A stretch of 64,000 nucleotides of DNA from Burkholderiales bacterium. GTDB taxonomy: Bacteria; Pseudomonadota; Gammaproteobacteria; Burkholderiales; Burkholderiaceae_E. The position numbers and the translations under genes are program-made. The notes beneath the pieces were generated by a model that made no database searches, was not told the DNA's origin, and saw nothing but the letters and a program-made list of their open reading frames with translations. The stretch covers positions 37,646 through 101,645 of the forward strand of contig JAFKGG010000366.1 in the NCBI GenBank assembly GCA_017307915.1. The letters run 5' to 3'. Of the stretch, positions 5,970-41,162 are shown one piece after another; within the stretch, counting starts at the first letter, position 1; every line of letters begins with the position of its first letter.

Positions 5970-6968
5970 ATGACGCTACAACAACTGCGCTACCTCGTCG
6001 CCACGGTTGAGAGCGGTTTCAACATCTCGCGCGCCGCCCAGAGCGTGCACACATCCCAGCCCGGCATCAGCAAGCAGCTGCGGTTGCTCGAACAGCAGCT
6101 CGGCACGGTGCTGCTGGCCAGGAACTCCAGCCGTATCGTCGGGCTCACCGACAATGGCGAGAAGGTCTACGAGGCTGCGCAACGCATTCTGCGCGAAACG
6201 CGCGGGCTGGCGCAGATGGGTGAAGATTTCATGGGCCAGCAGTCAGGCCGCCTGACCATCGCCACGCTGCACACCTATGCGCATGCGCTGGTGCCGCCGG
6301 CCGCAGCCCGGTTCCGGCAGCAGTATCCGAACGTTGCCATCGAACTGCTGCAGGCCTCGCCGGGCCAAATCATCGAGCTGGTGCGCGCCGGCGAAGCCGA
6401 CATCGGCATCTCGATGGAAACACCCGACGAACGCAGCGGCGTCTGTGCGCTGCCCTTTTTGAAGGCACCGCGCGCCTTGCTGGTACCGAAGGATCACCCG
6501 CTGCTGGACTGCGGGAAGCTGACCCTGGAGGAAATGGCCAAGTACCCGTTCGTGGTGCAGGCCGGCCTCACGACCGGCGGCTGGGCCGTCAGCCAGGTGC
6601 TGAAAGCGCGCGGCTTCAACATCGAAGCCGCCGTGACGGCCCCCGACGCCAGCCTGATGAAGGCCTGTATCGAGCAGGGTCTGGGCATCGCCATCATGTC
6701 ATCGCTGATGTACCACCCCGATCGCGACCCCGGGCTGCGCGCGCTCGACGTCTCGCACTTGTTCGACCCCAGCGACGTCACGCTGCTGCTCGATCCGTAC
6801 CGCTACCTTCGCGGCTACGTTCACCACTTCATCCAGATGATCGCACCCGAGTGGGAGCGTGCACGCGTCGCCGAGCGCGTGCGCGAATTCGTCATCGCCA
6901 ACGAACCGACATTCCGGCCGGTCTCGGAGCGACCGAGCCCGGCGCGGAACGCAGGCAAAAAGGCCTGA
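5970..6968 (+). CDS. LysR-family regulator, CysB/Cbl-like
   Basis: A 332-residue protein with an N-terminal helix-turn-helix typical of the CysB/Cbl subgroup (LQQLRYLVATVESGFNIS, then HTSQPGISKQLRLLEQQLG). A periplasmic-binding-like effector domain follows (IATLHTYAHALVPPA, GEADIGISME, GLGIAIMSSLMY). Length and layout fit the family. CysB-type proteins act as tetrameric activators that sense sulfur metabolites, but relatives in catabolic clusters sense other compounds. It is convergent with the end of the aromatic operon and is one candidate regulator of it. There is no strong Shine-Dalgarno sequence at the ATG. Confidence 0.92.
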   Translation: MTLQQLRYLVATVESGFNISRAAQSVHTSQPGISKQLRLLEQQLGTVLLARNSSRIVGLTDNGEKVYEAAQRILRETRGLAQMGEDFMGQQSGRLTIATLHTYAHALVPPAAARFRQQYPNVAIELLQASPGQIIELVRAGEADIGISMETPDERSGVCALPFLKAPRALLVPKDHPLLDCGKLTLEEMAKYPFVVQAGLTTGGWAVSQVLKARGFNIEAAVTAPDASLMKACIEQGLGIAIMSSLMYHPDRDPGLRALDVSHLFDPSDVTLLLDPYRYLRGYVHHFIQMIAPEWERARVAERVREFVIANEPTFRPVSERPSPARNAGKKA

Positions 6969-7032: not shown

Positions 7033-8016
7033 TCAGTTCGATTCGAGTTTGATCTTCGCCTTCTGGATCACGCCGGCCCATTTGATGCGATCATCGGCCA
7101 GCGATTTCGCGTAGCCGGCCGCCGAGGTCAGCGGGGCAGGCTCCAATCCGGAGCTGGTCAGCGTCTTGCGCACGTCGGGCTGCTGAAGGATCTTGCCGAT
7201 CTCGGCATTGAGTTGATCGACCACCGCTTGCGGCGTGCCGGCCGGAGCGAACATGCCGATCCAGGCATCGGCGCTGTAGCCGGCCACGCCGAGTTCGGCC
7301 ACCGTGGCAATGGTGGGTGCGCTCGACGTACGCTGCACGCCGGTCATCGCCAGGATGCGCAAACGGCCGGCTGCTGCCATCGGCAGCAGCGTGACCAGAT
7401 CGGAAACACCCGCCGTCACTTCGCCGCTGGCCACCGCAGCCACCGCCGGCGACGTACCCCGATACGGCACGGCCTGCAGCTTGGCACCGGTCATGCTCTC
7501 CAGCAACGCGCCGGCCAGATGCATGTGCGTACCGATGGCCGGCACGCTGTAGAGCACGCCTGTCTTGCTCGACTTGGCGGTGCTGATCAGTTCCTGCAGA
7601 TTCTGGATCGGGCTTTGCGCGTTCACCGCAACGCCGGTGGGTACGATAGCCAGCATCGCGATCGGCACCAGATCCTTGGGCGGATCGTAGGGCAGTTGCT
7701 GCAGCAGCGGCGAGATCGAGATCGGCCCACTGGGCGTCACCAGCAGCGTGTTGCCGTCGGGTGCTGAGCGAATCACGTCCTGCAGCCCGATCTGGCCGCC
7801 GGCGCCCGACTTGTTGTCGACGATCACGCTCCTGCCGAGTCCTTCGGCGAGCTTGGTGCCGATTAGCCGCGCCACCATGTCGGCACTGCCGCCGGCCGCG
7901 AACGGCACCACGACCCTGACGACGTTGCTCGAAGAACGTTGTGCCGATGCGGTGGCCGGCAACGCAGCCGCCGCCACCGTGGCCAGCAGCGCACATGCGC
8001 GAATGAGCGTATTCAT
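7033..8016 (-). CDS. Bug-family tripartite tricarboxylate transporter receptor (TctC-like)
   Basis: A 327-residue periplasmic protein. A signal peptide covers residues ~1-26 (ACALLATVAAAALPATASAQ). The Bug fold follows, with VVRVVVPFAAGGSADMVAR, VDNKSGAGGQIGLQ and a YRGTSPAVAAVASGEVTAG segment. Bug receptors capture carboxylated compounds with high affinity, often for TctAB permeases, though many are orphans. No tctA or tctB gene is present in the window. It is the last gene of the aromatic-degradation operon, 40 bp after the dioxygenase beta subunit, so its ligand is probably the aromatic carboxylate or a relative (inference). Confidence 0.93.
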   Translation of the reverse strand: MNTLIRACALLATVAAAALPATASAQRSSSNVVRVVVPFAAGGSADMVARLIGTKLAEGLGRSVIVDNKSGAGGQIGLQDVIRSAPDGNTLLVTPSGPISISPLLQQLPYDPPKDLVPIAMLAIVPTGVAVNAQSPIQNLQELISTAKSSKTGVLYSVPAIGTHMHLAGALLESMTGAKLQAVPYRGTSPAVAAVASGEVTAGVSDLVTLLPMAAAGRLRILAMTGVQRTSSAPTIATVAELGVAGYSADAWIGMFAPAGTPQAVVDQLNAEIGKILQQPDVRKTLTSSGLEPAPLTSAAGYAKSLADDRIKWAGVIQKAKIKLESN

Positions 8017-8056
8017 GGGTGGACTCCGTATGTCTCGTGATTGTTATGAAAGAGTT

Positions 8057-8542
8057 CTAGACTGGATAGACCAGGTAGCGCGGCGTGGTAACCGTGTCCA
8101 GAACAGCCCGGCGCGAGCGCAGCACCGCTTCACCGCCGTGCAGCGAGACCAGGTCTTGATAGGTGCCCGTCACCAGGATGTTGGACTTGCCCGTCCCCTC
8201 GGTGTAGGCCACCATGAAGTTGCTTTCCATCTCGTACAGCGACGCTTCCTTGCGCTGATGGCGCAGCCGCTGCACGAAATGCCGCGTGCTGTAGTCCTCG
8301 AAGGTGCCGTCCCAGACCTTGGTGACGTAGTTGGCACGGTCCTGGATTCGTGCGCGGTTGTCATCCATCATCACAGCCAGCGGCAGCTGCCGCTCATCGT
8401 TCTCGCGCGCGATGCATACGTAAGACGCATCGGCATCGAAACAGGCGACCCAGGCATCCATCTGCCGCATGTCGAGTGCGCGGATATACCTGATTTGCAG
8501 GGCGTCGAGACACGACGCAAGTTCTTGATCAGACACGTTCAA
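8057..8542 (-). CDS. Aromatic-ring-hydroxylating dioxygenase, beta (small) subunit
   Basis: A 161-residue protein of the SnoaL/NTF2-like fold used by ring-hydroxylating oxygenase beta subunits (YIRALDMRQMDAWVACFD, HFVQRLRHQRKEASLYEMESNFMVAYTE, RRAVLDTVTTPRYLVYPV). Beta subunits are structural, completing an alpha3beta3 oxygenase. The start codon lies 14 bp inside the end of the alpha-subunit gene, so the two are translationally coupled and almost certainly form one enzyme. Confidence 0.9.
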   Translation of the reverse strand: MNVSDQELASCLDALQIRYIRALDMRQMDAWVACFDADASYVCIARENDERQLPLAVMMDDNRARIQDRANYVTKVWDGTFEDYSTRHFVQRLRHQRKEASLYEMESNFMVAYTEGTGKSNILVTGTYQDLVSLHGGEAVLRSRRAVLDTVTTPRYLVYPV

Positions 8543-9707
8543 ACCCCATGGCTTGGCGATAGCGTTCCCAGCGGACCAGGTTGCCGGCTTCGTCGTTCTG
8601 TTTCAGGCTGGTGGGCAGGCCCATGTTGTCCTGCACGCCCTTCTGGAATGCCGCGATGCCGCCGGTACGCGCACCTACGTGCAGGCGGTTGAAGACCGCG
8701 CCGTCTTCAAGCGAAATCAGCCCGCTCGGCCCAAGCAGGTTCGACGCCTGGCGCACTCGGTGCTGCAGCAACTCGGGGCTGTCGTCGGCGCGCGCGAAAT
8801 AGGTGTAGTGCACCTCGGTCTCGTCCTGCGACACCGGCAACGCATACCGCACGGTGATCACGTCGAGGTGATGCAGGATCAGGCTTACCGGGAACAGCGA
8901 CACGACGATCGACTGCGGTGCCTTCGACTTGTCGAAGACTTCGATCAGCGAGTGATCATGCAGGAAACCCGAATCAGGCGCATGCGACAGCTCGGCAGCG
9001 ATGACCTTGTGGGCACGTGAGGTCATGAACTGCGAGCCCGCGCCGCCCTGCCATTTGAGCAGCCGGAAGGCGCGATGCAACAACGGTGCGTGGTAGCCCT
9101 CGTTATCGGAGTATTCCTTCCAGTTGGTCGCGAACGACACCTTCTGGTAACCCAGCAAGCGCAAGTTGCCGTCGCCACCGAACGCCCGCGCAATGTATTC
9201 GCGCGTTTCGCCCAGATACTCATCCAGCGGCGCCACGTTCGCGTCGAGCGTGGCGAACACCATGCCGCAGAATTGCGCGCTGCGCAGTACCCACATGCCG
9301 TAGTCTTGCTTGCGAAAGCTGGCCGGAAACTCCTGCACGCCGGGTGCGCCCATCAGTTCGCCGCGCGTGTTGAACGCCCAGCGATGGTAGGGGCACTCGA
9401 TCGAGCGGGCATGCCCGCGGCTGGCGGTCTCGAGCTGCGTGCCGCGATGCGGGCAGGTATTGGCGAATACACGGATCTGGCCGTCGTCACCGTGCATCAC
9501 GATGACGGGCGTGGCGCCGATCGTCAGCGTCTTGAAGTCGCCGGGCTCGGGCAACTCCGACACGTGGGCCAGCGGATGCCATTCGGGGCCGTGGAAGATT
9601 CGACGGATCTCTTCGCGATAGATGTCGGCGCGAACGAAGACCTCCTTGGGAATCTCGTTGATCTTGCGCGGCCAGTCGAATCGAATGGGAGAATCAGAGC
9701 ATTGCAT
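8529..9707 (-). CDS. Rieske aromatic-ring-hydroxylating dioxygenase, alpha subunit
   Basis: A 392-residue protein. The N-terminal Rieske [2Fe-2S] domain has the ligand set C85-x-H87 and C105-x2-H108 (TCPHRG ... CPYHRW). The C-terminal catalytic domain has the mononuclear-iron motif in NWKEYSDNEGYHAPLLHRAF, with bridging Asp201 and His206/His211, and a distal acidic ligand near residue 335 (LEDGAVFN). It would add O2 across a ring bond to give a cis-dihydrodiol. The downstream SDR, extradiol dioxygenase and NahD/NahE-like enzymes point to a fused-ring aromatic substrate. The ferredoxin and reductase it needs are not encoded nearby. Confidence 0.94.
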   Translation of the reverse strand: MQCSDSPIRFDWPRKINEIPKEVFVRADIYREEIRRIFHGPEWHPLAHVSELPEPGDFKTLTIGATPVIVMHGDDGQIRVFANTCPHRGTQLETASRGHARSIECPYHRWAFNTRGELMGAPGVQEFPASFRKQDYGMWVLRSAQFCGMVFATLDANVAPLDEYLGETREYIARAFGGDGNLRLLGYQKVSFATNWKEYSDNEGYHAPLLHRAFRLLKWQGGAGSQFMTSRAHKVIAAELSHAPDSGFLHDHSLIEVFDKSKAPQSIVVSLFPVSLILHHLDVITVRYALPVSQDETEVHYTYFARADDSPELLQHRVRQASNLLGPSGLISLEDGAVFNRLHVGARTGGIAAFQKGVQDNMGLPTSLKQNDEAGNLVRWERYRQAMGFERV

Positions 9708-9727
9708 GGATCAGGTTCCGAACGGTG

Positions 9728-10522
9728 TTACATGCGATCGAAGGTCGGGATGCGAAAGCCCGCGGTCATGCCGCCGTCGACGACCAGGATCGCCCCGGTG
9801 ATGTATGAGGCATCGGCCGAGGCCAGGAAAATCGCTGGCCGAGCGATCTCTTCCGGCTCTGCCGAGCGTTTCATCGGGCACAGCTCGGCCATTTCACTCT
9901 TGCCGGTAGGTGAGTTGCGCCAGTAGCCCTCGGTACGCGGCGTGCGCGTCGAGCCTGGGCACACGGCGTTGACGCGGATGTTGTCGCGCGCAAAATCCAT
10001 CGCCATGTTGCGCGTGAGCAGCACCACGCCGCCTTTCGATGCGCTGTAAGCGCCGCAGCGGTTTTCCGCCAGCACGCCGGCGATCGACGCCACGTTGACG
10101 ATGGCGCCGCCGCCGCGGCGGCGCATCTGCGGAATCGCATGCTTGGCGCTGCGATAGATGGAAGTCAGGTTGACGTCGAGCACCGAGGCCCACTCGTCTT
10201 CTTCCATCATCTCGACGTTCTTGGGAATGTTGATACCGGCCACGTTGAACAGCAGATCCAGGCCGCCGGCCAGCGCCACCGTGGCATCGACGGCATCACG
10301 GATGCCCTGAGCGTCTTTCACGTCCAGTTGCAGCGCCTGCGCCCGCCCGCCGGCGGCGTCGATCTCGTCGGCCACCTGCCGCGCATCCGCCGGGCTACGA
10401 TCGGTGACCAGCACGGCGGCGCCGCGCCGGGCCAGGTCCAGCGCAATCGAACGGCCGATGCCGGCGCCAGCAGCGGTCACCAAAGCGCCCTTGCCTTCGA
10501 AATCGCGGAGCAACGCGCTCAT
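9728..10522 (-). CDS. SDR-family dehydrogenase (probable cis-dihydrodiol dehydrogenase)
   Basis: A 264-residue classical short-chain dehydrogenase with cofactor motif TAAGAGIGRSIA (TGxxxGIG type) near the N-terminus, NVASIAG (catalytic Ser) and YSASKGG (catalytic Tyr/Lys). The start at 10522 overlaps the LigB-like stop by 4 bp (ATGA). In this operon the missing step between the Rieske dioxygenase and the extradiol dioxygenase is NAD-dependent rearomatisation of a cis-dihydrodiol, which SDRs such as NahB/BphB perform. That assignment rests on context; the sequence alone says only SDR. Confidence 0.88.
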   Translation of the reverse strand: MSALLRDFEGKGALVTAAGAGIGRSIALDLARRGAAVLVTDRSPADARQVADEIDAAGGRAQALQLDVKDAQGIRDAVDATVALAGGLDLLFNVAGINIPKNVEMMEEDEWASVLDVNLTSIYRSAKHAIPQMRRRGGGAIVNVASIAGVLAENRCGAYSASKGGVVLLTRNMAMDFARDNIRVNAVCPGSTRTPRTEGYWRNSPTGKSEMAELCPMKRSAEPEEIARPAIFLASADASYITGAILVVDGGMTAGFRIPTFDRM

Positions 10523-11343
10523 GCCGGAACCTTCAGCGCGGCGAAGCCCAGCCCCGTGATCCACTCGGGCACCGGCTCGTAGGCGAGAACCTCGGCCTCA
10601 TAGGTCGGCAGCGCTGCCATGGCCACGACCCAGTTGCGCACTTCCAGCGCGCCGTTGCCGGCCTGCTCGACGATCTCCTCGTCGGTCAGCGCGGCCAGCC
10701 CCTCGACGTCGCGTGCCCGCACCATCCGCAGGATGCGTTGGTCGAAGTCTTCATTGACCCGGCCCATGTCGGCCATGCCTACCCAGTGGCTGATGCCGCC
10801 GGTGCCGAGGATCACCACCCGCTCGTCGCCCGGCCAGGCGGCCACCGCTGCGCCGATCATGCGCCCCAGCTGGAGGCAGCGCCGGCCGCGGATCAGCGGC
10901 GTAGCGCCACACTGGATATAGATCGGAATGCTGCGTACCGACGCAGGTACGGCCAGATGGATCGGCACCATCGTTGAGTGATCGAGTGCCAGCGTCTTGG
11001 CCACCGCCCAATCGAAACCCCGCTCGAAGCCGAAGTTCATCAGGTGCTCGGCCAGCGGTGCATGGTTGGGCACCGGACGCCTGCCGATGCCCAGCCACGG
11101 TTCGACCGGCCCTTCCAGATCGCCGATGCCGATCAGGATGCTCGGCATGCAGCCGGTGCCGAACATGGTGACGTGATCGTCGCCGATCACGATCGCCGTG
11201 TCGGCATTCAGGGCCTCGATGCCCTGGCGGACCTGTTCGAATGCCGCCATCACGCGCGTGGCCTTGTCTTTCGGAGCGGCACCGGCAGCGCCGAGTATCA
11301 GTGGGTCATGCGGCAGACAGAAGCCGCCGACGAGTCGCGCCAT
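10519..11343 (-). CDS. LigB-like class III extradiol ring-cleavage dioxygenase, catalytic subunit
   Basis: A 274-residue protein of the LigB superfamily (PF02900). Predicted Fe(II) ligands are His12 (LPHDP), His57 (IGDDH) and Glu234 (GALEVRNW). Acid/base histidines are His122 (DHSTMVP) and His186 (GTGGISHW). It cleaves a catecholic ring next to the two hydroxyls. The LigA-like small subunit is encoded directly upstream, as in protocatechuate 4,5-dioxygenase and in CarBa/CarBb. The neighbouring NahD/NahE-like enzymes suggest the product is a chromene-type ring-fission acid rather than a protocatechuate product (inference). Confidence 0.92.
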   Translation of the reverse strand: MARLVGGFCLPHDPLILGAAGAAPKDKATRVMAAFEQVRQGIEALNADTAIVIGDDHVTMFGTGCMPSILIGIGDLEGPVEPWLGIGRRPVPNHAPLAEHLMNFGFERGFDWAVAKTLALDHSTMVPIHLAVPASVRSIPIYIQCGATPLIRGRRCLQLGRMIGAAVAAWPGDERVVILGTGGISHWVGMADMGRVNEDFDQRILRMVRARDVEGLAALTDEEIVEQAGNGALEVRNWVVAMAALPTYEAEVLAYEPVPEWITGLGFAALKVPA

Positions 11344-11349
11344 CTTGCG

Positions 11350-11625
11350 TCACTCCTGTTCGATATCGTCGCGCTGCCGCAGGCGCCGCAGGTATTCGGG
11401 CAGGCGTTCACGCCCCTCCACCGCAGTGAAAGCGCGCATCACCAGCATCGGATTGGCGCTGCGCGCGATCATCTCGTACACGTCCATGCTCAGGATCAGT
11501 GTCTTCTCCTGGTCCGACAGCGGGTACGCTGCCAGGAATACCTGCGGATCCTGCTTGTATTGCGCCGCACGCGCCGGCCCCGATGCAATCTCGAACAGGG
11601 CTTGTTCGATCGTGTGGATGCTCAT
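11350..11625 (-). CDS. LigA-like small subunit of extradiol dioxygenase
   Basis: A 91-residue, mostly helical protein of the LigA family, recognised by ALFEIASGPARAAQYKQDPQ, YPLSDQEKTLILSMDV and a C-terminal LPEYLRRLR. LigA subunits cap the LigB active site. At 91 residues it is shorter than the 139-residue LigA of protocatechuate 4,5-dioxygenase and closer to CarBa-type subunits. It lies 6 bp upstream of the LigB-like gene. Confidence 0.85.
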   Translation of the reverse strand: MSIHTIEQALFEIASGPARAAQYKQDPQVFLAAYPLSDQEKTLILSMDVYEMIARSANPMLVMRAFTAVEGRERLPEYLRRLRQRDDIEQE

Positions 11626-11655
11626 CGATCGTTCCCTTCCAGCCCACGCGACCCT

Positions 11656-12675
11656 TCAGGCCGAGGCCGGCGCAGGCCGCGCCGATGCGTACTTGCGCTG
11701 CAGTGCCGCCCAGGCTTCACCCGACTTGCGCGCGCCGGCCAGATACTCGTCGGGCACCAGGTGGTAAGGCGGCCGACATGGGCCCGCCTTCATCCACCCG
11801 GCCGAGTCGATGCGCGCCTTCTCCAACCCGATGTTGTATTTGGCGAATTCGGTGACCTCGCCCTTCGGAAACAGCGTCGACAGCGATGCCTTGATCTCGT
11901 CTTCGACGGCGCGAGCCTCGCTCCAGTCACCGCTGCGTTTGGCCTGCCTGACGGCATCACGCAGGCGAACGGCCGGGGCCGGCCCGCAGGAAGCACCGCT
12001 GCTCCAGAACGCCGTGCACTGCTCGGGATCGATGCGCGCCGCGGCGTAGTGATCGCCGTCGGTGGTCAGAAACCGGATGCGTCCCTTGGTCAGCTTCAGA
12101 TCCGTATAGAGCTGCGCGATCGTCAGGTATTTGGCCGACACCACCTGCTCGATCTCGGCCACCTGCGCCCAGAACGGTCGCCCGAATTCGAACTTGAAGG
12201 CCTCGACGTTGGCGTAGATGCAGATCGCCATCTCGGGACAGCCCTGCGCGACGTCGCGATAGAACTGCACGGCGGTAGGCAGATCGGGCTTGCACCACAT
12301 CGGCAGGCCGAGCATGGTGCCGTCGGCACCCAAGTCGAACGCTTCGCGCGTCTGGCGAATCGTCTCGCGCGTATTCAAACTGGTCGTGCCGCCGAACAGC
12401 GGCACCCGGCCGCGCACCGTTTCCACCAGCGCGCCGAGAAAGGCGCGCTTTTCGTCGGGATCGAGGCTGGCCCCTTCACCGAAGGTGCCCAGCGTGAGAA
12501 TGCCGTCGATGCCGCCGGCGATCAGCCCTTCGGCAGCGCGCACCGCTTCATCGACGTCGACCGTCTGCGTGGCGCGCCAATCGGAAGCATCGGGCTTGGC
12601 CGGCGTCGGCATGATCGCCCATGCCCCTTGGATGTCGGCTGCGGTCAGCCGGTTGCCTCGTCGCGGTCTCGTCAT
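11656..12675 (-). CDS. NahE-like hydratase-aldolase (trans-o-hydroxybenzylidenepyruvate type)
   Basis: A 339-residue class I aldolase of the DHDPS/NAL superfamily. It is very close to NahE-type enzymes in diagnostic segments: [62 protein letters not shown] and a C-terminal [16 protein letters not shown]. The Schiff-base lysine is Lys182 (VVSAKYL). The family hydrates and cleaves an arylidene pyruvate to an aromatic aldehyde plus pyruvate. The ATG at 12675 is used. It sits between the isomerase gene and ligA-like gene. The true substrate may be a substituted analogue, for example carrying an extra carboxylate; this is not decided by sequence. Confidence 0.92.
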
Positions 12676-12699
12676 TGCAGGTTCCTTTGAATCCGGATC

Positions 12700-13299
12700 T
12701 CAGGCAGCCATCTGCGATTGCAGGTACTGCTCGAGGAAATGAAGGCGGTCGTTGCCCCACCACATCTGATCGCCGACGAACATCGTCGGCACACCGAACA
12801 CGCCGCGCGCCGATGCCTGCTCGGTGGCCGCGCGCAGCCGCGCGTGCGCCGCATCGGATGAGACGTAGGCCATGAAGTCGTCTGCCGGCCAGCCCATCTC
12901 GCCGGCCAGGCCGAGCAGTAGCCCCTCGTCGTCCATCGCGCCGCCCTCGCCCCATACGCGCCGCCAGGCGGCCTCGACGTAGCGCGCCGGCTGCTCGCGA
13001 TCGAGCGCATACAGCGCGCCGCAATTCAGGCGCAGCGATCCATAGCTGGCGGGCGGCACCAAAGGCACACCGTAGTGCGCGGCCCAGCGTTGCAGGTCCA
13101 GACGCAGATGGCGATGCTTGACCGGCATTTCGCGGTTGGTCGGCCCCGTGTTGCCGACCGCCTGCTTGGCTTGCGCCAGGTCGATCGGCCGATAGGCCAG
13201 CGTCGCGCCGTAGCGGGCCGCCAGCGCCGGTAATTGCGTATGCGCCAGGTAGGCATACGGACTCAACAGGTCGAAATGGAACTCGATCGCGACGGCCAT
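12700..13299 (-). CDS. NahD-like 2-hydroxychromene-2-carboxylate isomerase
   Basis: A 199-residue protein of the DsbA/GST-kappa fold. It matches the NahD family in FDLLSPYAYLA (active-site serine), QAVGNTGPTNREMPVKHR, LDLQRWAAHYGVPLV, RVWGEGG and the C-terminal GVFGVPTMFVGDQMWWGNDR, which includes the cis-proline loop. The enzyme uses glutathione to interconvert a hydroxychromene-carboxylate ring-fission product and its open arylidene pyruvate. The ATG at 13299 is preferred because it places the conserved beta-strand at the N-terminus; a start at 13335 would add 12 residues. It is the first gene of the aromatic operon. Confidence 0.92.
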   Translation of the reverse strand: MAVAIEFHFDLLSPYAYLAHTQLPALAARYGATLAYRPIDLAQAKQAVGNTGPTNREMPVKHRHLRLDLQRWAAHYGVPLVPPASYGSLRLNCGALYALDREQPARYVEAAWRRVWGEGGAMDDEGLLLGLAGEMGWPADDFMAYVSSDAAHARLRAATEQASARGVFGVPTMFVGDQMWWGNDRLHFLEQYLQSQMAA

Positions 13300-13404
13300 C
13301 GTAGAAAAGTCTCGCTCCGCAGTGTCGACTTGCACGGCAGCTGGATGGCAGCACGCAGCAGCGACAGGCTGCGAATCCTAGGGACTGCGGCCCCGCGATG
13401 ACAG

Positions 13405-13423
13405 GATCGATTGGTTATCGATC
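13405..13423. promoter_or_regulatory. Perfect 7-5-7 inverted repeat in divergent promoter
   Basis: GATCGAT (13405-13411) and ATCGATC (13417-13423) flank TGGTT. This perfect 19-bp palindrome lies between the divergent isomerase operon and the aldehyde dehydrogenase gene, at the isomerase side. It overlaps the left arm of the larger symmetric element at 13412-13500. It is probably a regulator binding site; no protein can be assigned from sequence. Confidence 0.5.
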
Positions 13424-13500
13424 TAATACTTTTCGTTATGGACCGGCTCGCCCTGGCAATTTCGGCCAAACCATAACCGTGCGACATGGCGCGATAACCA
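13412..13500. promoter_or_regulatory. Nested symmetric operator between divergent catabolic genes
   Basis: The outer arms TGGTTATCG (13412-13420) and CGATAACCA (13492-13500) are perfect inverted repeats. The inner arms GTTATGG (13435-13441) and CCATAAC (13471-13477) are too. Both pairs are centred on the same base, 13456. Within each half, two GGTTATSG-like units recur 21 bp apart, about two helical turns. This is what a divergent regulatory region with four protein contact sites would look like. Confidence 0.6.
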
Positions 13501-13569
13501 GACGTTCCTGTGCCAGTCCGGATGCTGGCTCTAAGCTCGCTGCGCTTCAAAATCTGCCCGGAGTCTGCA

Positions 13570-15021
13570 TTGACCCGTATCGCCCAGCACTACATCGACG
13601 GCGCGTGGATCGACTCGCTCACTGCGTCGGCATCGATCGGTGACGCCCTCGATCCGGCGACCTCCGAGGTCGCCGCCCACTACGCCGACGGCACGATCGC
13701 CGAAGCCGATGCGGCCATCGCCGCGGCCCAGCGCGCCTGCCGCCACACGACGTGGCCGCACTCACCGCGCCTGCGCGCCGACGTGCTGCTGCGCTTTGCC
13801 GATCGCCTGGAGGCCCGCAAGGAAGAGATCGCCGACTGGCTGGTGATCCTCAACGGCAAGCTGCGCCGGGAAGCACTCGGCGAGATCACGGCCGGCGTGT
13901 CGGAGCTTCGTTATTACGCCGGCCTGGCACGCAATCTGTTCGGCCGCATCCTGCAGGTCGAGCCCGGCTGCCACTCGTCATTGGAGCGTGAGCCGGCCGG
14001 CGTCGCTGCCATCATCCTGCCGTGGAATGCGCCGATCACCTTGCTGGTGCGATCACTGGCACCCGCGCTGGCGGCCGGCTGCACGGTCGTCATCAAGCCG
14101 GCGCACCAGACCGCACTGCCGCACAACCTGGCGTTGCAGTGCCTGGTCGGCGACGAGCGCATTCCTGCCGGCGTGGTGAACTCGGTGATCGAATCGGGCT
14201 CGGCAGTTTCGGAGCGACTGACCACGTCACCCGACGTGGACATGCTCAGCTACACCGGCTCCACCGCAGTGGGCAAGAAGATCGCCGCGGCAGCAGCCGG
14301 CACGCTCAAGCGCCTGTCACTCGAACTGGGTGGCAAGGCGCCGGCGCTGGTGTTCGCCGACGCAGATCTCGATCGCACCATCGCCGGCCTGGTCAGCGGC
14401 GGCCTGGTGATGGCAGGGCAGCAGTGCACCGCCATCGCGCGCGTGCTGGTCGAAGACCGCGCCTATGCCACCGTCGTGCAACGCCTGGCCGACGCCTTGC
14501 GCGGCGTGCGCGTCGGCCAGGGTAGCGACCCGCAAAGCGAGATGGGCTGCCTGATCAATATCGCGAGCCGCGATCGCATCGCGGCACTGGTCGACCAAGC
14601 CGGCAGCGCGGGCGACGTGCTGGTGCACGGCCACGTTCCCGGCGGCGCGCTGTCGAAGGGGGCGTTCATCACGCCCAGCCTGGTTGCCGTCGATGAGCTG
14701 TCGTCGCGTTACGTGCAAGAGGAGCTATTCGGCCCGCTGCTCGTCGTCGAGCGCTTTGCCGATGAAACCGAGGCCGTGCAGCGCGCCAACGCCACCCGCT
14801 ACAGCCTGGCGTCCAGCGTCTGGACGCAGGATGCCAACCGCGCCCGCCGCGTCGCCGCCCGGCTTCGCTTCGGCACAGTGTGGTCGAATACGCACAACCG
14901 CCTATTCGCCGAGGCCGAGACCGGCGGTCACAGCGACAGCGGCTATGGACGGCTGCATGGCGTGGAAGGGCTGGACGATTTCCTGCGGACCAAACATTTC
15001 TATTTCGAAACGGGATCTTGA
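13570..15021 (+). CDS. NAD(P)-dependent aldehyde dehydrogenase (probable aromatic aldehyde oxidation)
   Basis: About 483 residues of the ALDH superfamily. It shows the NAD-binding and oxyanion segments IILPWNAP and YTGSTAVGKKI, the catalytic Glu in LELGGKAP, the nucleophile Cys in GQQCTAIAR, and EELFGPLL near the C-terminus. I favour the TTG at 13570: CCGGAG lies 6-7 bp upstream, and it makes the protein begin just before the conserved YIDGAW. GTG 13510 or ATG 13522 are alternatives. It is divergent from the operon that makes an aldehyde by aldol cleavage, so it probably oxidises that aldehyde, as NahF does salicylaldehyde (inference). Confidence 0.9.
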   Translation: MTRIAQHYIDGAWIDSLTASASIGDALDPATSEVAAHYADGTIAEADAAIAAAQRACRHTTWPHSPRLRADVLLRFADRLEARKEEIADWLVILNGKLRREALGEITAGVSELRYYAGLARNLFGRILQVEPGCHSSLEREPAGVAAIILPWNAPITLLVRSLAPALAAGCTVVIKPAHQTALPHNLALQCLVGDERIPAGVVNSVIESGSAVSERLTTSPDVDMLSYTGSTAVGKKIAAAAAGTLKRLSLELGGKAPALVFADADLDRTIAGLVSGGLVMAGQQCTAIARVLVEDRAYATVVQRLADALRGVRVGQGSDPQSEMGCLINIASRDRIAALVDQAGSAGDVLVHGHVPGGALSKGAFITPSLVAVDELSSRYVQEELFGPLLVVERFADETEAVQRANATRYSLASSVWTQDANRARRVAARLRFGTVWSNTHNRLFAEAETGGHSDSGYGRLHGVEGLDDFLRTKHFYFETGS

Positions 15022-15974: not shown

Positions 15975-17390
15975 ATGCGCGACGTCGCCCCAGACCCCGC
16001 CCCGGTTCCCTATTCCGATCTGTCGGCGCGGCTGGCCGAGTTCGTCGCCGCCACGCGCTGGGCAGACCTGCCGGCCGAGGTGCGTCATGAAGCTCGCCGC
16101 GCCTTGCTGAATTTCTTTGCGGCAGCGCTCGGCGGCTGCCGCGACGCGGCGATCGATCACGCGCTGGCGCTGTTCGGCAACGATGCCGCCGTACGTGGCG
16201 CAGCAGTCATCGGCCGGCCTGAACGCTGCGATTGGCTCGATGCGGCGCTGATCAATGCGATGAGCGCGAACGTGTTCGATTTCGACGATACGCACCTGCC
16301 GTCGATCGTCCATCCCACGGCGCCGGTGGCGCCGCCCTTGCTGGCGCTGGCCGAACGCCATCGGTGCCGCGGCGACGAGTTCCTGCTCGCGCTGGTGCTG
16401 GGCATGGAGATCGAATGCAGGCTCGGCGCCGCCGTGTCGCCGAGCCACTATCGGCACGGCTGGCACATCACGTCGACCTGCGGCGTGTTCGGCGCCGCCG
16501 CGGCCAGCGCAAAGCTGCTGCGGCTCGACGCCGGCCGAACCTTGTGGGCGCTGGGCAACGCATCGGCGCAATCGTCGGGCTTGATGGAAACGTTGAGCAG
16601 CATGTCGAAGAGCCTGGGCGTGGGGCAGTCCGCCCGCAACGGGCTGTTGTCGGCCCTGCTGGCCGAGCGCGGCTTCTGGGGGCCGGCGCGGCCGCTGGAG
16701 GGCGACTACGGCTTCCTGCGCGTGACCTGTGAAGCGCCCGACCTGGCCGGCTTGATCGAGGGTCTGGGCCGGCGCTGGGAGATGCTGTCCAATACCTACA
16801 AGCCCTATCCCTGCGGCGTGGTGCTGAACCCGGTGATCGAAGCCTGTCTGCAACTGGCGGCCGACCCGGCGTTCGCGATCGCCGACATCGAGCGCATCGA
16901 GCTCACCGGCCAGCCGCTGCTGCGCATTCGCACCGACCGGCCCAATGCCGCCAGCGGCCGCGAAGCGCAGGTCAGCGCGCAGCACGCCGTGGCGGTGGCG
17001 CTGGTGCACCGCAAAGCGGGAATCGCCGAGTTCAGCGACGCACAGCTTGGCGATCCGGCCTTGCGCGCACTCGGCGCCAGGCTGCGTTTCATCGACGATG
17101 TGTCGTTCGGCGTCGAAGCAGCGCGCGTCACCCTGCACATGCGCGATGGCCGCCGGCTGTCGCGCCAGATCGATGCCGCCCTGGGCGGCCGCTCACGACC
17201 CCTGTCGGATGGCGATCTGGCAACCAAGCTCAGGCAGCTCGCCGCCTACAGCGGGGCGAGCTGCGACGCCGAACGGCTCATCGCGGCGATCTGGTCGCTG
17301 GACGATGCGGACGATGCCGCGGCGCTGATGCGGCTGGCTGCTGGGTCGGGCGCGGCGCACGGCACGCAGCACGCGAAAGCAGCGCAATGA
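15975..17390 (+). CDS. MmgE/PrpD-family protein (copy 1)
   Basis: A 471-residue member of the 2-methylcitrate dehydratase / cis-aconitate decarboxylase family. It has the diagnostic FDFDDTHLPSIVHPTAPV segment, GMEIECRLG, HGWHITSTCGVFGAAAA and NTYKPYPCGVVLNPVIEA. The family dehydrates or decarboxylates hydroxy-polycarboxylic acids and is also found with itaconate- and iminodisuccinate-like substrates. It overlaps the next SDR gene by 4 bp, so an operon is clear. The second copy at 22441-23925 is only distantly similar, suggesting a different substrate. Confidence 0.88.
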   Translation: MRDVAPDPAPVPYSDLSARLAEFVAATRWADLPAEVRHEARRALLNFFAAALGGCRDAAIDHALALFGNDAAVRGAAVIGRPERCDWLDAALINAMSANVFDFDDTHLPSIVHPTAPVAPPLLALAERHRCRGDEFLLALVLGMEIECRLGAAVSPSHYRHGWHITSTCGVFGAAAASAKLLRLDAGRTLWALGNASAQSSGLMETLSSMSKSLGVGQSARNGLLSALLAERGFWGPARPLEGDYGFLRVTCEAPDLAGLIEGLGRRWEMLSNTYKPYPCGVVLNPVIEACLQLAADPAFAIADIERIELTGQPLLRIRTDRPNAASGREAQVSAQHAVAVALVHRKAGIAEFSDAQLGDPALRALGARLRFIDDVSFGVEAARVTLHMRDGRRLSRQIDAALGGRSRPLSDGDLATKLRQLAAYSGASCDAERLIAAIWSLDDADDAAALMRLAAGSGAAHGTQHAKAAQ

Positions 17391-18208
17391 CGCTTGGCAA
17401 CGAAGCAAACGACGCGACCGCGCGACCGCTCAGCGGCCGATGCGCGCTCATCACCGGTGCCACCGGCGGCCTGGGCCAGTCGATCGCGCTCGGCCTGGCA
17501 CGCGCCGGCTGCAGCCTGGTGCTGCACGGCCTGGAAACCGAGGCGGCGATGGCCGGCACGATCGAGCAATGGCGGCGCGAACACCAGGTCGAGATCTGCT
17601 ATCTGCGCACCGATCTGGCCAGCGCCGCCGGCGCGCAGGCACTGGCCGATGCCGCCCAGGCGTCGAGCCCTGGCATCGACATCCTGATCAACAATGCGGT
17701 GGTGCGCCACTTCGCGCCGATCGACGCGTTTCCGGTCGATGCCTGGGAGCGCGCGCTGGCGGTCAACGTTTCGGCCGCGTTCCATCTGGTGCGCCTGCTG
17801 CTGCCGCGGATGCGCGAGCGCGGCTGGGGTCGCATCCTCAACATGGCGTCGGTCTATGGCCTGCGCGGCGTGGCCGACCGGATCGACTACGTCACGACCA
17901 AATCGGCGCTGCTCGGCTTCACGCGTGCCGTGGCGATCGAGACGATCGGCCAGGGCATCACCTGCAATGCGCTGTGCCCGGGCTCGGTGCTGACGCCGGC
18001 GATCGATGCGCGCGTCAAGCAACTGATGGCACAAACCGGCATCGACCGCGCCACCGCGCAACGGCGCTTCCTGGCCGGCAAGCAGCCCAGCGGCCAGTTC
18101 GTCGACGCCGGCGACGTCGCCGAACTGGCCGTGTTTCTATGCGGCCCCGCGGCGCGCGACATCAGCGGGACAATGCTGCCGATCGATGGCGGCTGGCTGG
18201 CCGGCTGA
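17387..18208 (+). CDS. SDR-family oxidoreductase (3-hydroxyacyl/3-ketoacyl type)
   Basis: A 273-residue SDR with TGATGGLGQSIA (cofactor loop), NNAVV, LNMASVYG (Ser) and YVTTKSALLG (Tyr/Lys). CNALCPGSVLTP and the C-terminal ISGTMLPIDGGW resemble 3-hydroxybutyrate dehydrogenase and FabG-like enzymes. Its ATG overlaps the MmgE/PrpD stop (ATGA) and the metallohydrolase gene follows after about 40 bp, so it is the middle gene of a three-gene operon. The substrate is unknown. Confidence 0.88.
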   Translation: MTLGNEANDATARPLSGRCALITGATGGLGQSIALGLARAGCSLVLHGLETEAAMAGTIEQWRREHQVEICYLRTDLASAAGAQALADAAQASSPGIDILINNAVVRHFAPIDAFPVDAWERALAVNVSAAFHLVRLLLPRMRERGWGRILNMASVYGLRGVADRIDYVTTKSALLGFTRAVAIETIGQGITCNALCPGSVLTPAIDARVKQLMAQTGIDRATAQRRFLAGKQPSGQFVDAGDVAELAVFLCGPAARDISGTMLPIDGGWLAG

Positions 18209-18249
18209 GGCAGGCCGGGCGACGACACGACGCACGAGGAGACCAACGG

Positions 18250-19059
18250 ATGACAGCGATCACGTTGCCGAAGTACGAAGTTTTCGCACTGCGCTACGGC
18301 ACCATGCAGCAGCGCACCGGACGCGACAATTTTCTCGTCACCGCCGATGCGCACGACGGCCCGATGCCGATGGACTATTTCGTCTGGTTGATCCGCGGCA
18401 ACGGACGCCAGTACCTGGTCGACACCGGCTTCAACGCACAGGCGGCACTCGCGCGCAAGCGCACCTTCCTACGCTGCCCGATCGAGGCCTTGCAGGCGCT
18501 GGGCGTCAAGCGCGATCACGTGACCGACGTGATCGTCACGCACATGCACTACGATCATGCCGGCAACATCGAGCTGCTGCCCCGCACACGCCTGCACCTG
18601 CAGGAATCGGAAATGCATTACTCGGTGGGCCGGCACATGAACTTCACGCCCTTGCGGCATGCCTACGCAGTGGAAGACGTGACGCAGGTGGTGCGGCGGC
18701 TCTACCAGGATGAAGTCGTGTTCCATCAAGGCGACGAGCGGCTCGCCCCCGGCATCGAACTGCTGCATGTCGGTGGCCATACGATGGGCTTGCAGGCGGT
18801 GCGCGTGCATACGGCGCGCGGCTGGGTCGTGCTGGCCTCGGATGCGACCCACTACTACGCCAACATCGACAACGAGTCGCCGTTTCCGGTGGTGCACGAC
18901 GTCGGCGCGATGCTGGCGGGCTACCGCAAGCTGCTGGCGCATGCAGAAAGCCCGCATCATCTGGTGCCGGGGCACGATCCGCTGGTGCGTGCCCGCTATC
19001 CGCACTGGGGTGATTCGAACGGCGAGATCGTGGCCCTGCATCTGGAGCCCTCGCAGTGA
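18250..19059 (+). CDS. Metallo-beta-lactamase-fold hydrolase, AHL-lactonase-like
   Basis: A 269-residue MBL-fold protein. It carries the zinc motif THMHYDHAG (HxHxDH), a later histidine in VGGHTMG, the bridging aspartate in LASDATHYY and a C-terminal histidine in VPGHDP. This is the layout of N-acyl-homoserine-lactone lactonases (AiiA/AttM type). In a catabolic operon it more likely opens a lactone or cleaves a thioester or ester intermediate than quenches quorum signals. GAGGAGA lies 7-8 bp before the ATG at 18250. Confidence 0.88.
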   Translation: MTAITLPKYEVFALRYGTMQQRTGRDNFLVTADAHDGPMPMDYFVWLIRGNGRQYLVDTGFNAQAALARKRTFLRCPIEALQALGVKRDHVTDVIVTHMHYDHAGNIELLPRTRLHLQESEMHYSVGRHMNFTPLRHAYAVEDVTQVVRRLYQDEVVFHQGDERLAPGIELLHVGGHTMGLQAVRVHTARGWVVLASDATHYYANIDNESPFPVVHDVGAMLAGYRKLLAHAESPHHLVPGHDPLVRARYPHWGDSNGEIVALHLEPSQ

Positions 19060-19060
19060 G

Positions 19061-19088
19061 GGCCGGCCCCACTTCATGAGGGCCGGCC
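19061..19088. terminator. Possible bidirectional terminator hairpin
   Basis: Two copies of GGCCGGCC (19061-19068 and 19081-19088) are each self-complementary, so they can pair as an 8-bp stem around a 12-nt loop. The hairpin lies between the convergent metallohydrolase and carboxymuconolactone-decarboxylase genes. There is no clear T-tract. Confidence 0.35.
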
Positions 19089-19129
19089 TGCCGGCGCGCG
19101 AACGCGGCCGGCAGACCGCAATGAGCTCA

Positions 19130-19525
19130 TCAACCCGCTTCGGCCTTGCCCCCCGCCATCTCGGCGAACACTTTCCTGCCAATGCGAAAGCAGTTGGCGC
19201 CCGCCGGAATGCCGCAATAGACCGCGATCTGCATGATGATCGCGCGCAACTCGTCTTCGGTGATCCCGTTGCGAATGGCGCCGCGGCAATGCAGCTCGAA
19301 CTCCTCCATCCGGTTCAGCGCCGCGATCATGCCCAGGTTCAGGATGCTGCGCTCGCGCCGGCTCAAGGTCGGATCGCTCCAGCACAAACCCCAGCAGTAT
19401 TCGCTGGTCAGTGCCTGAAATGCCTTGCTGAAACCATCGGTGTTCTGCGCGCCACGGTCGACGTATTCCGCACCGAGCACTTCGCGGCGCACCGCGACGC
19501 CGGCTTCCATCAATGCCTTGTCCAA
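19130..19525 (-). CDS. Carboxymuconolactone decarboxylase-family protein
   Basis: A 131-residue AhpD-like-fold protein resembling PcaC-type 4-carboxymuconolactone decarboxylases: AVRREVLGAEYVDR, YCWGLCWSDPTLSRRERSIL, ELHCRGAIRNGITEDELRAI and IAVYCGIPAGANCF. A TTG at 19525 is the probable start: GAGGAG lies 6 bp before it and the resulting LDKALMEAG aligns with the family N-terminus. It is the last gene of the long minus-strand run, so transport and upstream reactions probably feed it. Confidence 0.85.
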   Translation of the reverse strand: MDKALMEAGVAVRREVLGAEYVDRGAQNTDGFSKAFQALTSEYCWGLCWSDPTLSRRERSILNLGMIAALNRMEEFELHCRGAIRNGITEDELRAIIMQIAVYCGIPAGANCFRIGRKVFAEMAGGKAEAG

Positions 19526-19597
19526 GGGAGACTCCTCACATAAAAAACGGATTGCATGCGAGTTGCCGCTACGTGCGACGCAAGCTTGCCGCATCCC

Positions 19598-20563
19598 TCA
19601 TCGGGCAGTCGCTGCAGCGGCCGCCGCGTCGGCTGCCATGGCGCTTGCCACGGCAGGTTCCAGCACTTCGCGCGGCACCTTGGTGTCGACCCCGGCACGC
19701 TCGACCTGCAGCATCATCGGAATTCGTGAATCGAGCGCCCCCCAGCCACGGTTCAGCGCTTCGGTCAGATCGGCGTGCGCCAGGCCAGCCAGGCGCATCG
19801 GTACGTCGAGCTCGCGCGCCAGCTCGGTGGCCAGCGTCACGTCCTTGTGGGCGAGCCTGAGCGTGAACGACGGCGGATCGAAGTATTGCGGCAGAAACTG
19901 CTCGGGCAGGCGATCGAACACGCGCTGCCGCCCGAACGCGCCCTGGCGCACTGCCAGCCACAGCGACAGGGGATCGACGCCCGCCTTCACGCCGAGCGTG
20001 AACACTTCGGCCAGCACGGTCTGGATCGTATAGCCGGCGCAGTTGTGCACCAGCTTGGCGACCGAACCGGCGCCGATCGCGCCGATGTGGAACACCTGGT
20101 CGCCGATCGCATCGAGCACCGGCTTGTAGCGATCGAACAGCGCCTTGTCGCCGCCCACCCACAAAGCCAGCTTGCCGCTCTTGGCGCCCAGGGGCCCGCC
20201 GCTGACCGGCGCGTCGAACACCGAGATACCCTTGGGCGCGAACGCCGCATGCAGCCGCCGCGCCAGCGTCGGCGACCCGGTGGAAAGATCGAACCAAGCC
20301 GTGCCGGCGCGCATGCTGGCGAGCAGGCCCTTGTCACCCAGCGCGATCGCTTCGACTTCCTTCGGACCGGGCAGCGACGTGAACACGAGGTCACAGCCGC
20401 GAGCCAGTTGCTCGATCGAATCGCTCCAGTCGCATCCGGCCTGCAGGTGCGGCGCCGCCGCCTCGCGCCTCAGGTCGTGAACGACGACGTCAAAACCGCG
20501 GGCACGAATGTTGAGCGCCATGCTCGCCCCCATCGTGCCCAAGCCGATAAAACCGATCCGCAT
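19598..20563 (-). CDS. 3-hydroxyisobutyrate dehydrogenase-family NAD(P) oxidoreductase
   Basis: A 321-residue beta-hydroxyacid dehydrogenase. The N-terminal Rossmann motif is IGFIGLGTMGASMA. The substrate loop is FDAPVSGGPLGAKSGKLA, and the catalytic lysine lies in VAKLVHNCAGYT. The C-terminal helical domain ends in an alanine-rich tail. The family reduces or oxidises short beta-hydroxy acids such as 3-hydroxyisobutyrate, tartronate semialdehyde and 2-(hydroxymethyl)glutarate. It follows the GntR gene by about 100 bp on the same strand. The exact substrate is unknown. Confidence 0.9.
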   Translation of the reverse strand: MRIGFIGLGTMGASMALNIRARGFDVVVHDLRREAAAPHLQAGCDWSDSIEQLARGCDLVFTSLPGPKEVEAIALGDKGLLASMRAGTAWFDLSTGSPTLARRLHAAFAPKGISVFDAPVSGGPLGAKSGKLALWVGGDKALFDRYKPVLDAIGDQVFHIGAIGAGSVAKLVHNCAGYTIQTVLAEVFTLGVKAGVDPLSLWLAVRQGAFGRQRVFDRLPEQFLPQYFDPPSFTLRLAHKDVTLATELARELDVPMRLAGLAHADLTEALNRGWGALDSRIPMMLQVERAGVDTKVPREVLEPAVASAMAADAAAAAATAR

Positions 20564-20663
20564 GCCAACCCCCGAGTGTATGAACCGGGGCGATCCGACC
20601 GAGTCCCTTACTCAATCGAATGGCGCCCCCGACCAGTGATCAAATCGATCCATCACCATTTCC

Positions 20664-21362
20664 TCAATCGGCCGCCGACTTGCGCAGCACTTCGGCAGCC
20701 GTCTTGGCCGCGTTCTCGACGTGCCGCACCATCGCGGCCCGCGCCGTCGATGCGTCACGCACGAGCAGCGCGTCGACCACCTCGCGCAGCTCGGCAAGGC
20801 TCTGGCGCGCGCGACCGTTGTGCTGCAGCGAGGTGGCGCGCAACACGGTGATGCGCGTATTCAACAGACCCAGCATCTGGCCCAGCGTCGCGTTGCCGCT
20901 GCCGCGCAACAGGCAGTCGTAGAACTCGTTCTTCAGCGCCAGCCACTGGCGCGCATCGTGGGAATCGATCGCGGTGGCCAGCTTGTCGACGAGCTGGTCG
21001 ATCTCCTGCTGCTCGGCAGCCGATGCGTGGCGCGCGAACAGCTCGGAAGCCAGCCCTTCCAGCTCGCGGCGCAATTGATAGATCTCCTGCGCCTGCTCGA
21101 CCGTCACCTGCGCCACGACCGGGCCGCGGTTCGGCACCACGTGCACCAATCCTTCGGATTCGAGCTGGCGCAGCGCCTCGCGCACCAATGTGCGGCTGAC
21201 GCCGGTCATGTCACATAGTTCACGCTCGATCAGCCGTTCGCCCGAGCTGAAATGGCCACTGGCGATCGAATTCCTGATGCTCTCGACGACGCTTTGCCGC
21301 AGCGGCGCTGCGACGCGGGGAACCCGGTAGATCCCGTCCAGGGTGGATGTCTTCTCGTTCAC
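20664..21362 (-). CDS. GntR-family regulator, FCD effector domain
   Basis: About 232 residues: an N-terminal winged helix (VVESIRNSIASGHFSSGERL; TGVSRTLVREALRQLESEGL) and an all-helical FCD domain with putative metal-binding residues (ELEGLASELFARH, KNEFYDCLL, ELREVVDALL). I prefer the GTG at 21362, which yields a normal FadR-subgroup N-terminus; an ATG at 21440 would add 26 atypical residues. FCD regulators usually repress catabolic operons and respond to a hydroxy- or carboxylic acid. It lies inside the long minus-strand run and probably controls that run. Confidence 0.9.
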   Translation of the reverse strand: MNEKTSTLDGIYRVPRVAAPLRQSVVESIRNSIASGHFSSGERLIERELCDMTGVSRTLVREALRQLESEGLVHVVPNRGPVVAQVTVEQAQEIYQLRRELEGLASELFARHASAAEQQEIDQLVDKLATAIDSHDARQWLALKNEFYDCLLRGSGNATLGQMLGLLNTRITVLRATSLQHNGRARQSLAELREVVDALLVRDASTARAAMVRHVENAAKTAAEVLRKSAAD

Positions 21363-21497
21363 TGCGGTGTCAGCCCAAATTGAATAGCCGTAGCCTCGAT
21401 CGCTTTTCCGCGCCGCTTTCCAGCCCGGAAAAACAAGCACCTTGTCGACGTTGCGCTTGGCCGTTATCCGACATGGCTGGCATCGACGGCAGCTATT

Positions 21498-22427: not shown

Positions 22428-22440
22428 GATCGCCCTGCCT

Positions 22441-38104: not shown

Positions 38105-38115
38105 TGCCTCGGGCC

Positions 38116-39279: not shown

Positions 39280-39373
39280 GCTGTCTCCCGAAGTATCGTG
39301 GCGCCTTGTCGCCGCTCGTTCGCGCGTATCGTTGCGCGCTGCCGAGCAGGTCGGCCGCGGCAGCGCGCTTGCA

Positions 39374-41059: not shown

Positions 41060-41162
41060 GGTGGCTGCTGGCGTTTGGGTCGGCGCGCTGGCTTGTTGGC
41101 CCGGGCGCGCACGCGCATTGCAATCCGGCAGCGCGGCGGCCACAAGCGATTGCTGCGTCGAT

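Follow-up and report, generated by a model that had tools for sequence, protein, structure and literature searches.

A putative upper pathway for a carboxylated naphthalene in a Burkholderiales genome, joining a LigAB ring-cleavage core to an AhdA1e-clade oxygenase

The nah upper operon of plasmid pDTG1 combines an NdoB-type oxygenase with a gene, nahC, annotated as 1,2-dihydroxynaphthalene dioxygenase, and NahC is a type I enzyme. LigB-type cleavage of the same diol has been described for PhnC of Burkholderia RP007 and McbB of Pseudomonas C5pp (PMC5141477, PMC6723655). PhnC is cited as a LigB-type enzyme cleaving 1,2-dihydroxynaphthalene, McbB is reported as active on this compound and inactive on protocatechuate (PMC5141477), and a LigA/LigB pair of Burkholderia FM-2 is named phnCa/phnCb (PhnCaCb) (PMC12472010). 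Here we describe a cluster of this kind in a 64,000-nucleotide stretch (the window) of contig JAFKGG010000366.1 from a Burkholderiales bacterium, in which genes for a Rieske oxygenase, a short-chain dehydrogenase/reductase (SDR), LigA, LigB, NahD-like and NahE-like proteins and a divergent aldehyde dehydrogenase (ALDH) lie together. Its core very probably opens a diol of the 1,2-dihydroxynaphthalene type, and the whole may form a hybrid upper pathway whose substrate is a carboxylated naphthalene of the naphthoate type, a reading that we consider evenly balanced between right and wrong.

The described systems each share a part of this arrangement. The phn genes of RP007 and FM-2, compared here by description and not by sequence, are reported to have the same LigB-type cleavage (with LigA too in FM-2) within a naphthalene/phenanthrene upper pathway, but differ in the initial oxygenase PhnAc/PhnAd and, in FM-2, in the regulators DntR, PhnR and PhnS (PMC12472010). 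The mcb cluster of Pseudomonas XWY-1 holds counterparts of ALDH (33% identity), NahE (63%), NahD (44%), LigA (34%) and LigB (53%), whereas mcb of XWY-1 and C5pp is reported to start with a carbaryl hydrolase and a flavin-dependent 1-naphthol hydroxylase, where the window has the Rieske oxygenase and the SDR. The NahD, NahE, ALDH and diol dehydrogenase steps are common to pDTG1 and the window, but no type I (VOC) NahC was found in the gene content of positions 7033-15021. In the nahE-bphA1e-bphA2e segments of sphingomonads (pNL1, pLA1, KK22 p1), a NahE-like gene adjoins an AhdA1e-clade pair with 50-52% identity to that of the window; unlike the window, no LigAB is annotated in the stretches compared, and amidohydrolase, RidA and RraA genes follow. 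An earlier note on this DNA had proposed that a LigAB-type enzyme occupies the place of NahC, and the presence of LigA and LigB with the absence of NahC bears this out; the replacement is not novel, being already known from PhnC, PhnCaCb and McbB.

The genome (G000; 6.1 Mb in 521 contigs, 94% complete, 4.75% contamination) carries the cluster on contig C83 and two further LigAB clusters on contigs C149 (locus L012) and C492 (locus L088), and a related cluster (L018) was found in the metagenome-assembled genome G825 of a Burkholderiaceae bacterium. The core was assigned to a 1,2-dihydroxynaphthalene-type diol because the NahE-like protein is 65-67% identical to NahE of naphthalene pathways and the NahD-like protein matches the solved 2-hydroxychromene-2-carboxylate isomerase NahD (2imd; phmmer E=1.4e-57). 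Against solved hydroxybenzylidenepyruvate hydratase-aldolases, the NahE-like protein scored 496 bits (9frt, E=4.9e-148) and 494 bits (6dao, NahE, E=2e-147) versus 311 bits (E=1.3e-91) for PhdJ, so that it is closer to NahE than to PhdJ, and a match to a solved NahE at 4.9e-148 means that the gene is not a chance call. In the NahE alignment the catalytic Lys (motif AKY) and the Tyr of the IYAN motif are conserved. The residue after IYAN is Val in the window and in G825, and Pro in most relatives. The earlier note had stated that its claim, an upper pathway acting on fused-ring aromatics, would fail if these two proteins grouped with non-aromatic families; by sequence identity they group with aromatic-pathway proteins, which supports the claim to that extent.

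LigA sits directly upstream of LigB, and its counterparts scored 27.2 bits (C492), 22.5 bits (C149) and 21.8 bits (G825) with PF07746, the latter two below the cut-off of 25.3. In a four-row alignment of LigB, columns H12, H57, H186 and E234 are invariant, and we take these residues to be the iron ligands and the catalytic His known from LigB. The window LigB shares 52.7% identity with its counterpart on the XWY-1 carbaryl plasmid, a protein whose gene adjoins mcbA and which is taken as McbB from that position, the C5pp McbB sequence lying outside the comparison. In the LigB tree, whose rows exclude PhnC of RP007, the proteins of the window, C149, G825 and C492 form one branch (support 99/93), whereas the XWY-1 protein (L007) falls in a different branch with L038 (98/92, inside a set at 99/93). 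Scanning a genome collection with the four-sequence LigB alignment returned 38 loci, and at least 18 of these also carry NahD and NahE; this count and that of NagAc-type subunits among the 18, given below, are lower bounds, as several loci stop at contig ends. Among 74 genomes of its family, LigB at E<=1e-60 was found in one. It was found in one of 399 sampled from the order, where at most six first-pass candidates per genome were scored, and Rieske alpha at E<=1e-90 in one of 398 sampled from the phylum (at most four such candidates), each time the window's own genome.

New here, besides the sister clusters and the operator-like pattern described below, is the oxygenase, which is not NahAc-like but belongs to the poorly characterised AhdA1e/BphA1e clade and is paired with an SDR. 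Rieske alpha falls with support 100/99 in a clade of 12 rows (the window, the C149 copy, pNL1, pLA1, KK22 p1, pBN2, Rhodococcus TG-1 and five genome-collection loci), with 46-68% identity to its members and at most 36% to the next relatives. We read this clade as the AhdA1e/BphA1e group, a name taken from published accounts and from the location of the pNL1 gene, which follows a NahE-like one, rather than from any labelled sequence. That group is described as a separate cluster with no standard member and an unusual metal motif (PMC2358900, PMC4048848), given as D-X-D-X2-H-X4-H, and is placed in a wider group of o-substituted-benzoate oxygenases, where AhdA1c and AhdA1d are salicylate 1-hydroxylases and AhdA1e is predicted to take salicylate. 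The window enzyme has D-N-E-G-Y-H-A-P-L-L-H at residues 201-211, with Glu at the bridging-Asp position; D-X-E-X2-H-X4-H occurs in three of the 12 rows (window, C149, G825), and the other nine have Asp. An AlphaFold2 model from a six-sequence input reached a mean predicted local distance difference test score (pLDDT) of 52.1. NahE is also present at eight of the 12 clade loci, a co-occurrence that is partly biased, five loci having been found via LigB and that of C149 via NahE; among the five plasmid loci found via the oxygenase itself, three carry NahE.

The SDR is 73% identical to its G825 counterpart, and its best plasmid relatives (58%) come from Prescottella and Rhodococcus; in R. qingshengii it lies divergent from, and adjoining, an AhdA1e-clade oxygenase. 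We infer that oxygenase and SDR form one functional pair. No ferredoxin or reductase gene was found in the operon, so the electron carriers must come from elsewhere.

Two other readings of this oxygenase were weighed. If the cluster were an upper pathway for neutral polycyclic aromatic hydrocarbons (PAH) such as naphthalene or phenanthrene, like phn of RP007, the AhdA1e-clade enzyme would be the initial hydrocarbon dioxygenase. The ring-fission module is the same as in phn and mcb, a NagAc-type alpha subunit (at least 43% identity) accompanies at least 13 of the 18 LigB+NahD+NahE loci, and both would suit this reading; but Rieske alpha lies outside the NagAc/NdoB part of the tree (PhnAc itself is not among the rows), among solved structures it matches 7vju, terephthalate dioxygenase 7q04 and salicylate 5-hydroxylase 7c8z best, and L029 and L030 each have an AhdA1e-clade gene in the neighbourhood of a distinct NagAc-type gene, as if serving another step. 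We therefore regard a neutral-PAH pathway as quite unlikely. Somewhat less improbable, though still doubtful, is that the Rieske pair hydroxylates salicylate (or a hydroxynaphthoate) at position 1, either between two ring cleavages or once they are done, with the first oxygenase encoded elsewhere: the tree position, the reports on AhdA1c/d/e and the place of the gene directly after the NahE-like gene in three sphingomonad plasmids point that way, but an SDR accompanies the oxygenase in the window, on C149 and in Rhodococcus, which suggests a diol product, and the genome already has a NagG-like salicylate 5-hydroxylase.

The sister clusters bear most directly on the substrate. On C149 there are SDR, Rieske alpha, Rieske beta and Bug genes resembling those of the window, and the other strand carries a TetR gene, NahE, NahD, LigA and LigB. 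A further oxygenase on that strand is BenA-like, scoring 472 bits with TIGR03229, below the cut-off of 781. Identities to the window are 68% for Rieske alpha, 64% for Rieske beta, 57% for Bug, 72% for LigB, 49% for LigA, 48% for NahD and 67% for NahE. The C149 SDR (L012 1-474 and L015 14273-14599) shares 87% identity with its window counterpart in the final 157 residues, but 56% in a 102-residue portion of the first part, as if by partial exchange. Contig C492 has LigA (57% to the window), LigB, PdxA and a CysB-like LysR gene, followed by Bug and by an oxygenase whose sister in the tree is the BenA-like enzyme of C149; a NahE match was not found on this contig. Enzymes of the BenA and PdxA types act on aromatic carboxylates, and a carboxylated substrate is favoured mainly because the sister clusters carry them. 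The substrate of the window cluster would be a naphthoate or hydroxynaphthoate. The earlier note had argued for a carboxylated bicyclic substrate from the Bug gene; the substrate class remains plausible because of the oxygenase clade and the sister clusters, which are better grounds, the Bug gene being a weaker one. Its mention of coumarin-like or quinoline-type acids found no echo, as nothing in the gene content or relatives points there, although no search was aimed at those pathways. As a whole, the earlier reading is partly supported.

In G825 nine parts of the cluster lie, rearranged, within about 17 kb, with identities of 66% for ALDH, 63% for Rieske alpha, 50% for Rieske beta, 62% for NahD, 73% for NahE, 54% for LigA, 67% for LigB and 45% for LysR, the ninth part being the SDR, whose identity is given above. 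C149 (L012, L015, L016) additionally carries an AndAc-like Rieske pair with a gene behind it that, by eye only, looks PdxA-like, a HsaD/BphD-like hydrolase (307 bits, below cut-off), and a gentisate-dioxygenase-like cupin (below cut-off) followed by an FAD monooxygenase. The 6.1-Mb genome gave 61 Rieske-alpha-like matches; the 17 listed genomes of the same genus are smaller, from 2.6 to 4.7 Mb.

The LysR regulator encoded beyond the Bug gene is CysB-like only, scoring 279.4 bits against a family cut-off of 402 for PRK12684, and is 43% identical to the LysR of C492. The whole window contains 12 ATAAC/GTTAT words, four of which fall in the 174-base region between NahD and ALDH, where 0.03 would be expected; these four form two ATAAC-N16-ATAAC pairs, one per direction. 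Genome-wide the pattern has four matches, two at the window cluster and two on C492 (0.2% of the genome), upstream of LigA and Bug, compared with two for a reversed-pattern control; both clusters with the pattern have a CysB-like LysR. On C149 neither the pattern nor a CysB-like LysR gene was found, and a TetR gene lies beside the copy. In G825 the pattern occurs before NahD and before Rieske alpha. We propose that the LysR protein binds ATAAC-N16-ATAAC and controls transcription in both directions; the CysB consensus itself is said to be very weak. A dyad, ATCGAT-N5-ATCGAT at 13406-13422, overlaps the putative operator; among the loci compared it has a single further exact match, in L071, and occurs neither at C492 nor in L018.

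CysB-type regulators often serve sulphur metabolism, and the regulator would fit a sulphonate substrate. If the substrate were a naphthalenesulphonate, an oxygenase attack on the carbon bearing the sulphonate would free sulphite and yield 1,2-dihydroxynaphthalene, and such routes, reportedly that of strain BN6 among them, also use NahC/D/E-like steps. In such chemistry the SDR would be superfluous, and the BenA-like oxygenases and PdxA-type gene of the sister clusters point to carboxylates; we consider this possibility very remote.

Returning to the naphthoate-type reading, 1- or 2-naphthoate or hydroxynaphthoate may be taken up with the help of the Bug receptor. The AhdA1e-clade oxygenase would attack the carboxyl-bearing ring, the SDR removing hydride if a diol forms, and loss of CO2 would give 1,2-dihydroxynaphthalene, as in the analogous reactions on benzoate and terephthalate and in salicylate 1-hydroxylation. 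The following steps can be predicted with more assurance from characterised relatives: LigAB would open 1,2-dihydroxynaphthalene to 2-hydroxychromene-2-carboxylate, NahD would isomerise it, and NahE would split the product into salicylaldehyde and pyruvate. ALDH may then form salicylate, which could be carried onward by a NagG-like salicylate 5-hydroxylase on C175 (its alpha subunit shares 69% identity with NagG, and genes for a beta subunit and a Rieske ferredoxin lie alongside) and a gentisate dioxygenase on C45 (above cut-off); two catechol 2,3-dioxygenases above cut-offs are also encoded in the genome. Control would be exerted by the CysB-like LysR at the paired sites between NahD and ALDH, in both directions. 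In its fullest form, the proposal is a complete decarboxylating naphthoate upper pathway with an AhdA1e-clade oxygenase naturally bearing Glu, its SDR, a LigAB of its own branch and a private CysB-like LysR regulon, comprising the window and C492, via an operator found nowhere else in the genome; we put this forward tentatively, as possible but on balance improbable.

Several points, beyond the regulator's affinity to sulphur metabolism, weigh against this interpretation. The naphthoate substrate is itself a prediction, and a decarboxylating monooxygenase would have no need of an SDR. Residue R287 aligns with an Arg that serves as carboxylate ligand in terephthalate dioxygenase. All 12 clade members share it, yet several hydrocarbon-type enzymes have it too, and this column therefore does not discriminate as a carboxylate marker; the second such Arg is absent. 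No Bug match was found in the G825 cluster, so Bug is not a fixed part, and ALDH is only about 30-33% identical to the ALDH of clusters L004-L007, far from nah-type clusters. The operator pattern was derived from the window, leaving only two C492 and two G825 sites as independent; G825 has eight matches genome-wide versus six for the reversed control, with six lying outside the cluster, and among the loci compared further matches lie in L022 and within the oxygenase gene of L028, there on both strands. Published accounts of the clade diverge: AhdA1eA2e of strain PNB is described as truncated and without activity, that of strain P2 reportedly works with type IV carriers (the reference given for it bears a title on salicylate 1-hydroxylases; PMC2358900, PMC4048848), and another paper names AhdA1e an initial PAH dioxygenase with its initial reaction on phenanthrene, which favours the neutral-PAH alternative.

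The features are collected in Table 1. All genes named in the earlier note are present, every listed enzyme and Bug gene scoring above its family cut-off, LigA only narrowly, as a small open reading frame that is easily overlooked. The minus-strand genes run NahD-NahE-LigA-LigB-SDR-Rieske alpha-Rieske beta-Bug, from 13335 down to 7033, with only short same-strand gaps or overlaps, as in one operon, and ALDH is divergent; the operon holds the genes that the earlier note gave it, but Bug, counted as its last gene, lies outside the 8057-15021 range assigned there. Set beside the homologues, three listed starts look too early: the true start of the SDR would be near 10522, at an ATG that overlaps the stop codon of LigB, that of Rieske beta near GTG at about 8536 and that of ALDH near TTG at about 13570.

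Table 1. Genes and operator-like sites of the cluster (window coordinates).
Feature	Position	Strand	Basis
CysB-like LysR regulator	5970..6968	+	best NCBIfam model PRK12684 (CysB family), 279.4 bits
Bug/TctC solute-binding protein	7033..8016	-	PF03401, 208.8 bits
Rieske oxygenase beta	8057..8542	-	PF00866, 67.7 bits
Rieske oxygenase alpha, putative AhdA1e/BphA1e clade	8529..9707	-	PF00355, 72.9 bits; PF00848, 44.2 bits
SDR, probable diol dehydrogenase	9728..10564	-	PF13561, 217.7 bits
LigB-like catalytic subunit, LigB-superfamily (class III, also called type II) extradiol dioxygenase	10519..11343	-	PF02900, 126.1 bits
LigA-like small subunit, 91 aa	11350..11625	-	PF07746, 26.2 bits (cut-off 25.3)
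NahE-like hydratase-aldolase	11656..12675	-	PF00701, 70.5 bits
NahD-like 2-hydroxychromene-2-carboxylate isomerase	12700..13335	-	PF01323, 184.6 bits; first gene of operon
Operator-like ATAAC-N16-ATAAC, NahD side	13414..13439	-	sequence pattern
Operator-like ATAAC-N16-ATAAC, ALDH side	13473..13498	+	sequence pattern
Divergent aldehyde dehydrogenase (ALDH)	13510..15021	+	PF00171, 453.7 bits

The contig that carries the cluster is no isolated fragment, as suf-type Fe-S genes lie further along the window. Rfam gave no matches at the gathering threshold, and neither promoter-like sites (1 versus 1.2 in shuffles) nor terminator-like sites (5 versus 4.3) were in excess. Elsewhere in the window, MmgE/PrpD-family genes (15975-17390 and 22441-23925) flank SDR-like, metallo-beta-lactamase-fold, CMD-family, 3-hydroxyisobutyrate-dehydrogenase-like and amidohydrolase genes (15975-23925), to which no pathway was assigned, and AtuA-like and biotin-dependent carboxylase genes at 34185-41143 resemble a cluster for acyclic terpene or leucine-type utilisation.

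No naphthoate gene cluster was found in a search of open-licence literature, and one review describes a naphthoate route through its intermediates. The cluster described here offers a candidate gene set for naphthoate use. Moreover, it would give the AhdA1e clade, often named in PAH papers with differing functions, one concrete and testable function, and the short promoter element, itself easily testable, may connect two aromatic-acid clusters in one genome.

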